The notes below the pieces were generated by a model. The model had not been told where the DNA came from. It did not search any database and worked only from the letters and a program-made list of their open reading frames with translations. Made by a program: the position numbers and the translations under genes. A DNA stretch of 64,000 bases from Burkholderiaceae bacterium (GTDB lineage Bacteria; Pseudomonadota; Gammaproteobacteria; Burkholderiales; Burkholderiaceae_C): the NCBI GenBank assembly GCA_919902775.1, contig CAKKRJ010000009.1:1-64000 (forward strand). Reading direction: 5' to 3'. Shown piece after piece: positions 46,336 to 53,222 of this stretch (position 1 is its first letter; each line of letters starts with the position of its first letter).

Positions 46336-47976
46336 TCAGGTCAACACCGCGCCCTCGCTGGCTGGAAGAACATGTTGACGGTAGCGGCGCATGAACCCCA
46401 CGGGAACCTGGCGCTGGTAGGGTACCCAGTGTTGACGTCTGAGCGTCAGCGTCGTCTCATCCACATGCAGGGTCAGCGCCCGATTCGGGATATCGATTTC
46501 AATCAGATCCCCGTCCTCGATCAGGGCAATCGGCCCCCCTTGCCAGGCTTCCGGGCAGATGTGGCCGACGCAGGGTCCCGAGGTGGCGCCAGAAAATCGG
46601 CCATCCGTGACCAAGGCGGCATTTTTGAATCCGGCCATCTTGAGCGCCACAGTGGCGCCGAGCATTTCTGGCATCCCCGGCGCCCCCTTCGGCCCCATGT
46701 AACGCAGCACCACCACATGATTGGCCTGAATGTGCCCGTCGCCAATCGCCCGGATAGCTTCTTCCTCAGAGTTGAAACAGATCGCCGGACCCTGGCAATG
46801 GAGCATGTCCTCTGACACTCCTGATTGCTTGATCACAGCGGTCTCGGGTGCCAAGTTACCGCGCAAAATGGTGATGCCGGCGCGTCGGCGAAAAGCCTGA
46901 TCCAGCGCTGGAATAACCTTGGCATTGCGCACCCGCGCGGCGTCCATCGTGGCCTGCAAGGATTTGCCGGTGACTGTCATCACGCTGCCGTCAAGGTGCG
47001 GCGCAATCTGTTGAAGCACCGCTGGCATGCCACCGGCCGCCCACAGATCCTGAATGCCGAAAGGACCATTCGGGCTTACCGCCAGCAGCGTTGGAATATG
47101 GTCGGCCGCCTCAAATTCAGCCAGTCCAAAGGGCACTTCAGCCGCGTGCGCGATCGCCGGCAAATGCAGTGCCGTATTGGTCGATGCGCCAATCGCCATG
47201 GCCGTGGCCACCGCATTCTTGAAGGCGGCAGGCGTGAACATCTGCCGGGCATTGAGACCTTCGTGGACCAGACCGACAATACGTTCACCGGTGCGCCGCG
47301 CCGCCTTGAGTTTGTCGGCGTGCCAGCCTGGAATATTGCTGCTGCCGGGCAGGCAAATGCCAAAGGCCTCTGCCAGGCACTGAAAGGTATTGGCTGTACC
47401 CATGATTTCGCAGGCGCCACAGGTAGCGCAGGTGAGTGACTTGTCCAGGCGATGGGCATCCGTCTGAAAATCACCGTGGTCGATTGATCCCGACGGGTTG
47501 TCAACATTGCGGATGTCCATTTGACCCGGTCCGCCACCAAGGTAAATGGCGGGCAAGTCCAGCCTGGCCATGGCCATCATCATGGCCGGGTTGATCTTGT
47601 CGCAACCGGCGATGAACACCACCCCATCGTAGGGCTGTGACCGCAAGTGGGTTTCAATCAGATCGGCGATCAGATCACGCTGCGCCAGCACGAAGCGCAT
47701 GCCGTCGTGCGCCATGGCCACACCATCACAGGGCGCCGGCACGTTGAATTCTGCGCATTCACCACCGGCGGCCAACACGCCATCGCGCACCTTGGCGGCC
47801 AGGCGATCCAGATGGGCGTGCCCCGTCGTCAATTCGGTGTGCGAATTGGCAATGGCAATCAAAGGACGGGTCTTGAGCTGTTCGGCATCAATGCCGGCGC
47901 CGTGCAGCAAGCCCTTGCGAAACATGTTCATCAAGGGGCTGGCACTGTTGGAAAGAATGTCGCTGCGTTTGCTCAT
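46336..47976 (-). CDS. IlvD/Edd family dehydratase (sugar-acid dehydratase-like)
   Basis: RPLIAIANSHTELTTGHAHLDRLAAKVRDGVLAAGGECAEFNVPAPCDGVAMAHDGMRF; FIAGCDKINPAMMMAMARLDLPAIYLGGG; CATCGACEIMGTANTF. Confidence 0.92.
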   Translation of the reverse strand: MSKRSDILSNSASPLMNMFRKGLLHGAGIDAEQLKTRPLIAIANSHTELTTGHAHLDRLAAKVRDGVLAAGGECAEFNVPAPCDGVAMAHDGMRFVLAQRDLIADLIETHLRSQPYDGVVFIAGCDKINPAMMMAMARLDLPAIYLGGGPGQMDIRNVDNPSGSIDHGDFQTDAHRLDKSLTCATCGACEIMGTANTFQCLAEAFGICLPGSSNIPGWHADKLKAARRTGERIVGLVHEGLNARQMFTPAAFKNAVATAMAIGASTNTALHLPAIAHAAEVPFGLAEFEAADHIPTLLAVSPNGPFGIQDLWAAGGMPAVLQQIAPHLDGSVMTVTGKSLQATMDAARVRNAKVIPALDQAFRRRAGITILRGNLAPETAVIKQSGVSEDMLHCQGPAICFNSEEEAIRAIGDGHIQANHVVVLRYMGPKGAPGMPEMLGATVALKMAGFKNAALVTDGRFSGATSGPCVGHICPEAWQGGPIALIEDGDLIEIDIPNRALTLHVDETTLTLRRQHWVPYQRQVPVGFMRRYRQHVLPASEGAVLT

Positions 47977-48007
47977 GGTAAATAGACGCCTGTCTTTGTT
48001 GTTGAAC

Positions 48008-49492
48008 TCAGAGCATGACGCCCAGATCCCAGGGGCAGAATTCCTCTTCGCCGTAGCCCATTTGTTCGCTCAGGGTGCGTTCCCCCGAGGCCACCGCGAC
48101 GATGCGCTCGAAAATCCGCGTGCCAACCTGTTCAATCGTCTCACTGCCGTCGAGAATCGTGCCGGCATTGATGTCCATGTCATCGGGCATGCGCTGGTAA
48201 AGCTGCGTGCTGCCTGCCAGCTTGATCGAAGGCGCTGGTTTGCAACCAAAGGCCGAGCCGCGGTCGGTGGTGAACACCATCACCGTGGCGCCACCAGCGA
48301 CCTGCGCGGTGGCACCCACCGGATCAAAGGAAGGCGCATCCATGAACACCAGCCCTCGGCCTGGCTCAACCGGCTCGGCATAGAGATAAACCTCGTTGAG
48401 GTTGCTGGTGCCACCCTTGGCAATGGAGCCCAGCGATTTCTCAATGATGGTGCTCAAGCCGCCGGCCTTGTTGCCAGGCGATGGATTGTTATTGATCACC
48501 AAGCCGCGTGGCTTGACAAAATCTTCCCACCACTGGATGCGGTCCACCAGTTTGCGGCCGACTTCCGCGTTGACGGCTCGGGCGGTCAGAATGTGCTCGG
48601 CGCCATAGGTCTCGGTGGTTTCAGAAAGAATTGCCGTGCCACCGTGGCGAACCAACAGATCAACGGCATAACCCAGCGCCGGATTACAGCTGATGCCAGA
48701 CACACCGGATGAGCCCCCGCATTGCATGGCCAGTTTGAGTTCACGCAGGGGCACGGGCTCGCGCTGGACGTCATTGATGACGGGCAACAAAGATGTGATC
48801 CGCTCAATGGCTTTTGTCACCAACTTTTGGGTGCCGCCAAGCGCTTGAATGGACATGGAATCACCGGGCGATCCGCCCAATATGTCGCCCAGGTTGGCGA
48901 TTTCGCAGCCCAGACCCACCACGATGATGTGCGCAAAATTGGGGTGATCGACATAACCTTTGAGCGCCCGTTTCAGCATGTCCACACCTTCGATCGGCGT
49001 GTCGAGCCCACAACCGCTTTTGTGCGTCAGTGCCAGCACACCATCGACATGGGGATAGGCGTCGAGTTTTCCCTCGAAGTGCCTGGCAATCTGTTTGGCC
49101 GCGGTGGCGGAGCAATTGACGCTGGAAACCACACCGATGTAATTGCGCGTTGCCACCTTGCCGTTGGCACGGTGAATGCCCATGAAGGTGCCGGGATTGG
49201 CGACGAAGTCGGTCGCTTTGGCCTGGGTGCCAAAGGCGTAATCACGCTCAAACTCGGCCATGCCCAGGTTATGCACATGCACGTGGTCTCCGGGCTGAAT
49301 GTCTTGCGTGGCCACGCCAATGATTTGGCTATACCGATGAACGAAGGCACCCTGTTTGAGCGCGTGCCTTGCGACCTTGTGCCCGGACGGGATGGGCCCC
49401 GTCGTGACCAGGCCGCCTTCGAGCGTCGCGCCTTGGGCCAGGTCGCTCAGGGCAATCCATACGTCATCGGATGGGTGTAACAGGGTGATCAT
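48008..49492 (-). CDS. UxaA family hydrolase / altronate dehydratase-like (SAF domain + C-terminal domain)
   Basis: GGLVTTGPIPSGHKVARHALKQGAFVHRYSQIIGVATQDIQPGDHVHVHNL; CGGSSGVSGISCNPALGYAVDLLVRHGGTAILSETTETYGAEHIL. Confidence 0.9.
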   Translation of the reverse strand: MITLLHPSDDVWIALSDLAQGATLEGGLVTTGPIPSGHKVARHALKQGAFVHRYSQIIGVATQDIQPGDHVHVHNLGMAEFERDYAFGTQAKATDFVANPGTFMGIHRANGKVATRNYIGVVSSVNCSATAAKQIARHFEGKLDAYPHVDGVLALTHKSGCGLDTPIEGVDMLKRALKGYVDHPNFAHIIVVGLGCEIANLGDILGGSPGDSMSIQALGGTQKLVTKAIERITSLLPVINDVQREPVPLRELKLAMQCGGSSGVSGISCNPALGYAVDLLVRHGGTAILSETTETYGAEHILTARAVNAEVGRKLVDRIQWWEDFVKPRGLVINNNPSPGNKAGGLSTIIEKSLGSIAKGGTSNLNEVYLYAEPVEPGRGLVFMDAPSFDPVGATAQVAGGATVMVFTTDRGSAFGCKPAPSIKLAGSTQLYQRMPDDMDINAGTILDGSETIEQVGTRIFERIVAVASGERTLSEQMGYGEEEFCPWDLGVML

Positions 49493-49552
49493 GTCGTGTC
49501 TCCTCGTGCTTTTAAGGCGCAATGGTAGGCAGGTGTCAGCAGCTTGTCTTTC

Positions 49553-49585
49553 GAATAGAAGACAATCGATTATGAATAGAAGACA
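49553..49585. promoter_or_regulatory. AraC-family operator candidate: direct repeat GAATAGAAGACA x2, 21-bp period
   Basis: Two perfect 12-mers at 49553-49564 and 49574-49585 between divergent uxaA-like and araC-like genes; the upstream copy pairs with TGTCTT at 49545. Confidence 0.7.
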
Positions 49586-49623
49586 CTTTTTCGACGCAGA
49601 CTTGCTGTTCTGAGCGCAAAACC

Positions 49624-50661
49624 ATGAAGAAAAGAACCGAATCGGTCTATTACACGCACCCCAGCTCCCTGTATGGGCTCGATCGCTTGGCGCTGCTCTT
49701 GCATCAACCCATTCAGCCGCTGCTCAGCCGTGTCGGGCTCACAGAGCAAGCCTTGAAAGATCCTGAGATGGTGGTTTCATATGCGGCGATTTGCAAGTTG
49801 CTTGAGGCATGCGCAAGCGAATGGGATTGCCCGGATCTTGGCATTCGTCTGGGCCAGATGCAAAACATGGAATTTTTGGGCCCCGTGGGTTTGGCGGCAC
49901 GGCTGACCGATACCGTAGGCGAAGCCATCCACGCGGTTCAGCTGAACTTGTCCATCCACTCCAACGCCTTTCACTGTGACACTGAATTTGGAAATCATGA
50001 AGGCACCGACCATGCCCGTATCACCTATGCAGCCAAGCCCCATGCAGGTGGCGGAGCGCAAATGGTTGAATTGAGCCTGTGCCGGATCTACCAGTTTTTG
50101 GCGATCACATCTGGGCTTACAAAACCCAAAATTTTGCGTGTGAGCATGCAACATGCACCGCTCAGTTCATCCAGGCTCGGCGCTCGTTTCTTTGGTTGCA
50201 AGATCTCTTACAACGAATCCGTCAATGCCGTCTATGTCGATCGCGCCTTGCTCAGCGTGCCAACGGCCGTGCGCGATGCCAGCATTTCACCCATCGTGCG
50301 CGCCTACCTGGAGCAGACCCGCCAGCAAACGGAATCAAACATGGTGGAAGTCACCCAACGACTGATCGCGCAGTTGCTGGCCACCGGCCGTTGCACCCGG
50401 GACGCGGTTGCAGAGCTGTTGCATATTCACCCCCGCACCCTGCAGCGCCGCCTGGCGCAAGAGCACACCTCATTTGGCGGTTTGCTCGAAGACTATCGTC
50501 GCATCAAGGCCTTTGAAATTGTCAGCCGAGGCTCTATGCCATTGGTCCAGCTGAGCCTGTTGCTTGGCTATGCCAATCAAAGCGCCTTTTCGACGGCCTA
50601 TCGGCGCTGGTACGGAAAGAGCCCCATCAGCGACCGACTTTTCAGCGCAAACGGGGATTAG
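49624..50661 (+). CDS. AraC family transcriptional regulator
   Basis: TRDAVAELLHIHPRTLQRRLAQEHTSFGGLLEDYRRIKAFEIVSRGSMPLVQLSLLLGYANQSAFSTAYRRWYGKSP. Confidence 0.9.
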   Translation: MKKRTESVYYTHPSSLYGLDRLALLLHQPIQPLLSRVGLTEQALKDPEMVVSYAAICKLLEACASEWDCPDLGIRLGQMQNMEFLGPVGLAARLTDTVGEAIHAVQLNLSIHSNAFHCDTEFGNHEGTDHARITYAAKPHAGGGAQMVELSLCRIYQFLAITSGLTKPKILRVSMQHAPLSSSRLGARFFGCKISYNESVNAVYVDRALLSVPTAVRDASISPIVRAYLEQTRQQTESNMVEVTQRLIAQLLATGRCTRDAVAELLHIHPRTLQRRLAQEHTSFGGLLEDYRRIKAFEIVSRGSMPLVQLSLLLGYANQSAFSTAYRRWYGKSPISDRLFSANGD

Positions 50662-50766
50662 AACGGTCCAGGTCAATACATGGCTTGCGATGGCGCCGCC
50701 ATCAGATTCAAGCTGACTTGGATGTCAATGGTTCGAGAATTTTTAAAATTTCAGATCGAAAATGTC

Positions 50767-50797
50767 TTGACCTTCAGGTTGACTTGAAGGTTAGAGT
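50767..50797 (+). promoter_or_regulatory. MerR-type promoter TTGACC-(19)-TAGAGT with dyad in spacer
   Basis: TTGACCTTCAGGTTGACTTGAAGGTTAGAGT. Confidence 0.75.
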
Positions 50798-50831
50798 GCC
50801 GAGTTTTCCGACTCTGGTATCAGGAACCTGC

Positions 50832-50996
50832 ATGTTCACATCCCTGCTCAAGCGCATCCTTCCCGGCCTCATGGCGACGTTTCTGGTGCAGGCTGCGGCA
50901 GCACAACCGGCAGAGGTGACAGGCCAAAACCCGAGTTCGGGCAAGGCGGTGGCCAAGGCTTTGCTCCAGGCGATTGAGGTCAACCAAATCCAGTGA
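50832..50996 (+). CDS. small predicted secreted protein (54 aa)
   Basis: MFTSLLKRILPGLMATFLVQAAAAQPAEVTGQNPSSGKAVAKALLQAIEVNQIQ; signal-peptide-like N-terminus, lies between MerR-type promoter and merR-like gene. Confidence 0.4.
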   Translation: MFTSLLKRILPGLMATFLVQAAAAQPAEVTGQNPSSGKAVAKALLQAIEVNQIQ

Positions 50997-51027
50997 ACTG
51001 GATGACAACGCAACAAGAAGGTGCTTT

Positions 51028-51459
51028 ATGAAAATCGGCGAACTGGCCAAGCGCAGCGGCTTGGCCACCTCCACCATCCGTTTCTACGAATCCAAGGGAC
51101 TGTTGAACGCCGTGGGTCGTCAAACCAATGGTTACCGGGAGTACCCGTTGGAAGCGGTGGCCGTCCTGTCCATCATCGCCAACGCGCAGCAGACGGGCTT
51201 TACGCTGGACGAGATCAAGCAAATCCTGCCGCAGGACATTGCCCATTGGCAGCACGACGAGCTGTTGCTGGCCTTGCGCAAAAAGATCAACGACATCGAG
51301 ACCATGGAGGTGCGCCTGGCGCAGAGCAAGGCCCATTTGCAGTCGCTGATTCAGCTGATCGATGCCAAGCCCGCGGACATGGCGTGCGCGGACAACGCCG
51401 TGCGGGTGTTGGACAGCATGGGGATTGCCAGCCGCAAGAAAGGCAGCAGCAGGGGATAG
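51028..51459 (+). CDS. MerR family transcriptional regulator
   Basis: MKIGELAKRSGLATSTIRFYESKGLLNAVGRQTNGYREYPLEAVAVLSIIANAQQTGFTLDEIKQIL. Confidence 0.95.
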   Translation: MKIGELAKRSGLATSTIRFYESKGLLNAVGRQTNGYREYPLEAVAVLSIIANAQQTGFTLDEIKQILPQDIAHWQHDELLLALRKKINDIETMEVRLAQSKAHLQSLIQLIDAKPADMACADNAVRVLDSMGIASRKKGSSRG

Positions 51460-51479
51460 AAAATTTCAAAAAAATACGC

Positions 51480-51510
51480 TTGACATTCAAGTTAAGTTGA
51501 ACCTTAAGCT
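51480..51510 (+). promoter_or_regulatory. second MerR-type promoter TTGACA-(19)-TAAGCT with related dyad
   Basis: TTGACATTCAAGTTAAGTTGAACCTTAAGCT. Confidence 0.75.
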
Positions 51511-51561: not shown

Positions 51562-52497
51562 ATGCAAACAATTCTTGGCGCTACCGGGCAGATCGCGGTG
51601 GAGTTGGCCCGCGAACTGGTGCGCAACACCACCACCGAGCTGAGGCTGGTGAGCCGCAACCCTCGCAAGGTCAACGCCACCGATGCGGTGGTTGCCGCCA
51701 ATTTGCTCGACACCGAGCAGACGCTGGCCGCCGTCACGGGCAGCGATGTCGTGTACTTCACCGCGGGTCTGCCGCCGGATACGGCGGTGTGGGAAGCCCA
51801 GTTCCCGACGATGTTGCGCAACGCGCTCGATGCCACTCGCGCAGCGGGCGCCAAGTTCGTCTATTTCGACAACACCTACATGTACCCGCAAGACGATCGC
51901 TTGTTGAAGGAGGATGCACCTTTTGAGCCGAATGGCCGCAAGGGCAAGGTGCGGGCAGAGATGGCTGCCATGGTGCTGGAGGAGATGGCGAGAGGTGACA
52001 TCCCCGTGCTCATCGGCCGCGCCCCGGAGTTCTACGGCCCCGGCAAGACCCAAAGCTTCACCAACGCGCTGGTGATCGACCGGCTGAAACTTGGCCAGAA
52101 GTCCCGCGTGCCGGTGCGTGACGATACGTTGCGCACCTTGATCTGGACGCCGGATGCCAGTCGTGCACTGGCAGTGTTGGGCAATGCGCCGGATGCCTAC
52201 GGCCAGACCTGGCATCTGCCCTGCGATGACAACCGGTTGACCTACCAACAATTTGTGGCATTGGCCGCGGATGTGTTTGGCCGGCCACCGGCGTACAGCG
52301 TCATCGGTCGCCTCACGATGACGGTGGCGGGACTCTTCAAAAAGGAAGTCCGAGAGATCAGCGAATTGTTGCCCCGCTACCAGCAGGACAACTTGTTCGA
52401 CTCTGGCAAGTTCAAGCGACGCTTCCCGGATTTCGCGGTGACAAGCTACAGAGAAGGTTTGTGTCAGATTCAGCAGCAAGCCAGCGCGATCGGATAG
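51562..52497 (+). CDS. NAD(P)-binding / NAD-dependent epimerase-like protein (atypical SDR)
   Basis: QTILGATGQIAVELARELVRNTTTELRLVSRNPRKVN; FVYFDNTYMYPQDDRLLKEDAPFEPNGRKGKVRAEM. Confidence 0.88.
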   Translation: MQTILGATGQIAVELARELVRNTTTELRLVSRNPRKVNATDAVVAANLLDTEQTLAAVTGSDVVYFTAGLPPDTAVWEAQFPTMLRNALDATRAAGAKFVYFDNTYMYPQDDRLLKEDAPFEPNGRKGKVRAEMAAMVLEEMARGDIPVLIGRAPEFYGPGKTQSFTNALVIDRLKLGQKSRVPVRDDTLRTLIWTPDASRALAVLGNAPDAYGQTWHLPCDDNRLTYQQFVALAADVFGRPPAYSVIGRLTMTVAGLFKKEVREISELLPRYQQDNLFDSGKFKRRFPDFAVTSYREGLCQIQQQASAIG

Positions 52498-52515: not shown

Positions 52516-52968
52516 TTACGGCGATGGCATGACTTGACCGCGAACCTCGCCGCCTGGATGGGTCTCGGTATGCAGGTTGACATACCATTTTCCAGACATC
52601 AGCTCTGCCGTCTGAGCTGCTGTTAATGTGGCGGATCCCTTGATGGGGCTTTCCATTGGGCCTGTGAGGCCCAATGCCACGCCGGCACTGACGCCAACGG
52701 GTGCTGGGCCATGGAAGTGGCCCGCTTTGACTGGGCCGGACAGGCCCGAATAGGTCACCGTCCAGCTCAATACATGGGTTCGTTTGTCCAAGGTGGCGTT
52801 CAACATGCCCATGCCTGCACTGGTGTTGGCCGGGACCTCATGGGCCCCCGCAAGTTGGGCACCGAAGACCATCGTGCTCGAGTCCTTCATCGCGCCACAG
52901 GCACTCAAGCTCAACGTGAAGGCGATCAAGCCCAGGGACAAGAATTTTTGGGTGTTCAACATGGTCAT
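52516..52968 (-). CDS. CHRD domain-containing lipoprotein
   Basis: LSLSACGAMKDSS lipobox; FGAQLAGAHEVPANTSAGMGMLNATLDKRTHVLSWTVTYSGLSGPVKAGHFHGPAPVG...WYVNLHTETHPGGEVRGQV. Confidence 0.9.
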   Translation of the reverse strand: MTMLNTQKFLSLGLIAFTLSLSACGAMKDSSTMVFGAQLAGAHEVPANTSAGMGMLNATLDKRTHVLSWTVTYSGLSGPVKAGHFHGPAPVGVSAGVALGLTGPMESPIKGSATLTAAQTAELMSGKWYVNLHTETHPGGEVRGQVMPSP

Positions 52969-53105
52969 TCCTTCAAGATGTGATTTATTAAAGAAAATAG
53001 CTGCGCCGTTCAACGCCAAAAAATGATAGCGAGACATCCCCAAAGGGATGCGCCATTTTGTGTGGGCAAACAGACAGACAAACCAATGTGGATCGACCAT
53101 GAAGA

Positions 53106-53153
53106 AAGCGCTTTGCTTGCACCCTGGGTTGACAGGGTGCAAGCAAAGCGCTT
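53106..53153. repeat. perfect 21-bp-stem inverted repeat with 6-nt loop
   Basis: AAGCGCTTTGCTTGCACCCTG-ggttga-CAGGGTGCAAGCAAAGCGCTT; no adjacent T-tract. Confidence 0.8.
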
Positions 53154-53222
53154 GCTTCAACAGCCACTACCCGCTTGAGGGGCGACTCTGGGACGACTGT
53201 GGCGATGGGTGTCAGCCCTTAC

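Follow-up and report, generated by a model that had tools for sequence, protein, structure and literature searches.

Old yellow enzymes (OYEs) are a heavily used family of biocatalysts whose natural function is often unclear. In the NemR–NemA system of E. coli, such an enzyme is controlled in electrophile stress by NemR, a repressor of the TetR family. Promoters controlled by MerR-family proteins typically have spacers of 19–20 bp, which are essential for regulation; the regulator holds these promoters inactive and, when triggered, distorts the DNA, turning both boxes towards RNA polymerase (PMC9909328). The metal sensors of the family are recognised by two cysteines bordering a C-terminal loop (PMC9909328), and SoxR by four C-terminal cysteines for a [2Fe-2S] cluster. 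The carbonyl and formaldehyde regulators NmlR and AdhR have their cysteine in the DNA-binding part, at residue 52 or 54 (PMC4776306).

The locus described here lies in a 64,000-nucleotide stretch of contig CAKKRJ010000009.1 from a Burkholderiaceae bacterium, hereafter the window. It very probably encodes a one-component MerR-type switch that controls itself and an SDR gene, belongs to a widespread subfamily and stands in a remodelled locus; its signal is probably an electrophile, sensed through Cys120. NemR–NemA is comparable with those relatives of the locus that bear an OYE gene, except that the regulator here is a predicted activator of the MerR family. The type of switch is textbook. The subfamily and its regulon are apparently undescribed, without this amounting to proof of novelty: no description of a MerR regulator of an OYE, or of this gene set, was found in the open-access literature searched, subscription papers being outside the scope.

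Promoter geometry

Both promoters can be read in the plus strand. P1 (TTGACC-19-TAGAGT, 50767-50797) points into an apparent relic ORF and the merR gene, and consists of a −35 box TTGACC at 50767-50772, the dyad TTCAGGTTGACTTGAA at 50773-50788 and a −10 box TAGAGT at 50792-50797. P2 (TTGACA-19-TAAGCT, 51480-51510) lies 51 bp upstream of the SDR start codon, with its −35 box TTGACA at 51480-51485, the dyad TTCAAGTTAAGTTGAA at 51486-51501 and its −10 box TAAGCT at 51505-51510. In each, a dyad of the form TTCArGTTrAsTTGAA occupies the 19-bp spacer. The initial annotation had placed two 19-bp-spacer promoters with a common dyad at exactly these positions, and rightly so. When the 3.49-Mb assembly was searched with the 31-bp promoter pattern, allowing up to three mismatches, P1 and P2 were the only matches and the reversed control gave none; nor did a −35/dyad/19-bp/−10 arrangement of their quality appear in any of 60 dinucleotide-shuffled versions of the window. 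A chance origin of P1 and P2 was rejected on the strength of these searches. The assembly is 84% complete and may therefore lack additional targets.

The arrangement is shared widely. With the regulator as query, 80 loci were fetched, and at 55 of the 56 closest (L004-L059), all with related regulators, at least one site combines TTGAC with the dyad. The count was then extended to 65 loci that have a related regulator or a related SDR. Dyads that match at least 14 of 16 positions and bear TTGAC number 75 there, every one at the same offset. TAnnnT follows exactly 19 bp downstream in 72 of the 75 and 17, 18 or 20 bp downstream in none; the reversed control showed this geometry nowhere in the 65 loci. 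The fixed position of the −10 box is independent evidence, since the −10 box had no part in the first selection of sites. The initial annotation had staked its reading on conservation of the 19-bp geometry in related loci, and the relatives do keep the promoter that characterises the MerR superfamily, with an internal dyad in a 19–20-bp spacer.

In most homologues' sites the half-sites read TTAAAG. Covariation of base 3 of the half-site with residue 16 of the regulator, a recognition residue, is suggestive but confounded by one clade: base 3 is C in 21 of 48 half-sites paired with T or A at residue 16 and in 3 of 96 otherwise.

The sites share an operator core, CAAGTTnACTTG, a 19-bp spacer and stress-type targets with SoxR. 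Written as CAAGTTnAsTTG, this core differs little from the SoxR box of E. coli (CCTCAAGTTAACTTGAGG; PMC4411124), which makes cross-binding by another MerR protein conceivable, and 19-bp spacers also occur in some SoxR promoters (PMC4411124). P1 and P2 might then be SoxR boxes under a SoxR encoded elsewhere in the genome and respond to redox-cycling drugs. This is extremely improbable: no protein of the assembly reaches the SoxR cut-off of 116.9 bits, the best being the regulator of this very locus at about 51.8, which has no [2Fe-2S] four-cysteine motif and, of the cysteines concerned, Cys120 alone. A SoxR could have escaped the search because the assembly is incomplete. Over more than 50 loci the sites go together with the regulator gene next to them, and the TTAAAG half-sites of most homologues are unlike the SoxR box. 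Control by the adjacent regulator is the reading followed below.

The regulator

The merR gene (51028-51459, plus strand) encodes a protein of 143 aa with the N-terminal winged HTH of the MerR superfamily (residues 1-69), a dimerisation helix (76-112) and a cysteine, Cys120, that opens the last helix. It matches PF13411 (MerR_1) at 62.9 bits, and PF00376 (MerR) and PF09278 (MerR-DNA-bind) are also above the Pfam cut-offs. It fits none of the named subfamilies compared, falling far short of what NCBIfam requires for CueR, MerR, ZntR, CadR-PbrR, SoxR and NmlR: the five CueR/MerR/ZntR/CadR-PbrR models, whose cut-offs lie at 143-168 bits, give it 59-67 bits, and two stricter models give it less. 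In an alignment of 56 regulators, the window's own included, Cys120 is the single invariant cysteine (56/56).

The winged-HTH fold, the dimerisation helix and the dyad within a 19–20-bp spacer are common to this protein and the metal regulators CueR, ZntR, CadR, PbrR and MerR. The solved structures closest to its predicted fold (pLDDT 87) are CadR, CueR and PbrR, and Cys120 takes the position of the distal cysteine of the CueR metal loop. These points would suit a metal-responsive switch of the CueR/ZntR/CadR/PbrR kind with a metal ion as inducer. However, two cysteines border the metal loop in such sensors (Cys112 and Cys120 in CueR; PMC9909328), whereas the proximal one is absent here and one C-terminal cysteine is invariant in the subfamily. 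The scores far below every metal-regulator cut-off also argue against metal sensing, as do the targets. These are enzymes of redox and hydrolytic reactions, and neither a transporter nor a chaperone for metals was found among them in the compared loci. A metal inducer is thus improbable.

NmlR and AdhR are alike in having a single conserved cysteine and oxidoreductase targets. In contrast to theirs, the cysteine here is Cys120, combined with a C-terminal sensor loop; the window's regulator has no cysteine at residues 52-54, the family has no shared cysteine column there, and the score against the NmlR model is 38.7 bits for a cut-off of 175.

Probable remodelling of the locus

A third copy of the dyad lies upstream of P1, and the initial annotation had described it as a possibly decayed site lacking good −35 and −10 boxes. 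Read along the minus strand, its −35 box is perfect (TTGACA at 50728-50723) and is followed by the dyad TCCAAGTCAGCTTGAA at 50722-50707 and, 19 bp from the −35 box, by a poor −10 box, GATGGC at 50703-50698. The suspicion of decay is therefore upheld and applies to the −10 box; the −35 box had been overlooked. In the regulator tree, the window's regulator falls within a fully supported clade of 14, and in 13 of 13 clade-mates an OYE gene, divergent from merR, follows a site on the other strand. The third site (50698-50728, minus strand) matches this promoter in position and orientation, and is best read as the relic of a divergent OYE promoter because the 13 clade-mates carry one there. A plus-strand auxiliary operator was rejected in view of the minus-strand −35 box, dyad and 19-bp spacing and the position of the clade-mates' OYE promoter. 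No OYE of the clade-mates' type was found within the window, and the three OYE-family proteins of the assembly are only 29–38% identical to the clade-mates' enzyme.

A second apparent relic is the 54-codon ORF (54 aa; 50832-50996, plus strand) between P1 and merR. Its start resembles the signal peptide of a DJ-1/PfpI protein encoded between site and merR in loci L007, L010 and L107, and from there it jumps straight to the C-terminal tail (VTGQNPSSGKAVAKALL), comprising about 26 residues (VTGQNPSSGKAVAKALLQAIE...) of a periplasmic-type DJ-1/PfpI protein. A complete DJ-1/PfpI domain is absent from the ORF, which has no Pfam match above cut-off. It is apparently what an internal deletion has left of a DJ-1/PfpI gene. 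A conserved leader peptide was rejected because what is conserved is the tail of DJ-1 and because Pseudoduganella violacea has at the same place, between a plus-strand site and merR, a separate DJ-1/PfpI relic that is start-less and arose independently, in parallel to the one in the window (L006:4816-4917).

The predicted target of P2 is a gene (51562-52497, plus strand) for an atypical extended SDR, an NAD(P)-binding protein of 311 aa (PF01370/PF13460) whose fold model is of low confidence (pLDDT 57.7). Eight other loci (L018, L019, L056, L098, L100, L101, L102 and L106), which belong to several lineages, have a site directly upstream of the gene for this SDR, and four more (L040, L042, L054 and L099) have it in an operon behind the site. 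To account for linkage to the SDR, the regulator tree requires at least six changes, so the partnership between SDR and regulator must have been lost or made repeatedly. Among 399 genomes of the order, a close SDR was found in two, in both with the regulator within 2 kb. The slot behind merR, which holds the SDR gene in the window, has a site driving an acetoacetate-decarboxylase-like (ADC-like) gene in L004, L005 and L008. Since the closest relatives of the SDR adjoin regulators from other branches of the tree, the SDR gene was probably acquired from elsewhere. Apart from the window's own genome, none of 60 genomes of the genus that were searched contains the regulator, the SDR or the adjacent AraC gene. 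The locus is most likely a remodelled regulon that has gained the SDR and lost OYE and DJ-1.

The surroundings and the SDR relatives offer some further observations. The AraC-family regulator, which has QhpR-like similarity and is absent from 59 genus-mates, is divergent from two dehydratase-like genes (IlvD/EDD-like and UxaA-like; 46336-50661). On the other side, a gene for a CHRD-domain protein with a lipoprotein-like stretch is convergent with the SDR gene (52519-53160, minus strand). A Providencia/Proteus plasmid (L102:3935-4927) carries an SDR gene with the same 19-bp promoter and no MerR gene of this subfamily within about 4 kb; its regulator must be elsewhere or the promoter orphaned. 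In Pluralibacter gergoviae a broken SDR gene adjoins the regulator (L058:4568-4863).

With two relic parts in place, the OYE promoter and the DJ-1 gene, the window's copy of the switch could itself be decaying and no longer functional. This is highly improbable, as merR and the SDR gene are both intact, full-length ORFs with conserved residues, and P1 and P2 keep all promoter elements. A remodelled, working switch is the better account.

The predicted regulon and its probable signal

Across the relatives, sites often lie about 28 nt upstream of the start codons of specific genes. The gene behind the site is an OYE gene (PF00724) in 42 loci, and an OYE gene is present at 49 of the 56; other genes found behind sites encode an ADC-like protein, an alpha/beta hydrolase, DJ-1/PfpI, an SDR or the regulator itself. 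Aldehyde dehydrogenase joins the set in annotated plasmid loci. The regulon, as predicted from these sites, varies from locus to locus. On plasmid pNK82 of Caballeronia sp. NK8 (L100:2167-10914), two regulators of this subfamily and several sites occur in one cluster with genes for DJ-1, SDR, hydrolase, aldehyde dehydrogenase and an ADC-like protein. The proposal of the initial annotation that the regulator controls itself and the SDR gene is strongly supported by the conserved geometry and dyad and by the same promoter directly before the gene for this SDR in eight other loci. It had missed, however, that the third site is a minus-strand promoter relic and the small ORF a gene relic, and that relatives mostly have an OYE, rather than the SDR, as their main target.

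We infer that a dimer of the regulator binds the dyads between the −35 and −10 boxes of P1 and P2. In the absence of a signal it would keep these over-long promoters inactive; on receiving one it would twist the DNA and make both usable by sigma-70 RNA polymerase. Activity of P1 would then yield more regulator, a positive autoregulation, and activity of P2 would yield the SDR oxidoreductase. The signal is probably a reactive electrophile, such as an unsaturated or other reactive carbonyl or a quinone, acting through the invariant Cys120. Reactive carbonyls, enones and quinones are suggested because the target set (ene-reductase, DJ-1, aldehyde dehydrogenase, SDR and hydrolase) is combined with a single invariant cysteine; on the same grounds, the regulator is most likely a thiol-based activator, probably of the response to electrophile or carbonyl stress.

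A serious rival, although on balance an unlikely one, is that the regulator senses a specific catabolic substrate, for example an aromatic aldehyde or a lactone degraded by the OYE, ADC-like protein, hydrolase, aldehyde dehydrogenase and SDR. In Agrobacterium pusense, genes for the ADC-like protein, hydrolase, aldehyde dehydrogenase and SDR form a pathway-like run, and a similar set occurs without this MerR on a Streptomyces plasmid. However, most loci consist of OYE and merR alone and the gene set is freely variable, a pattern that fits detoxification better than it does a pathway of set composition. The Streptomyces plasmid (L104:1-4921) groups genes for hydrolase, ADC-like protein, SRPBCC, aldehyde dehydrogenase and SDR with no MerR of this subfamily, so Actinomycetota have the enzyme set under a different control.

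Implications

Beyond this locus, it is possible, and is proposed tentatively, that these proteins form a new MerR subfamily that senses electrophiles through a single cysteine in the C-terminal loop and controls a detoxification regulon that is both modular and mobile (OYE, DJ-1, ADC-like protein, hydrolase, aldehyde dehydrogenase and SDR) across Proteobacteria, with 19-bp promoters before different genes in different lineages. If so, the sensing layout would be one not seen in SoxR, the metal-sensing MerR proteins or the NmlR proteins. The comparison provides a testable regulator, operator and gene set for a MerR subfamily present in many Proteobacteria, and predicts a physiological role for OYEs. 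The window itself would represent a regulon in the midst of rebuilding: a promoter relic and a gene relic are still in place, so that rewiring through the exchange of genes downstream of an unchanged promoter may be read from it directly.
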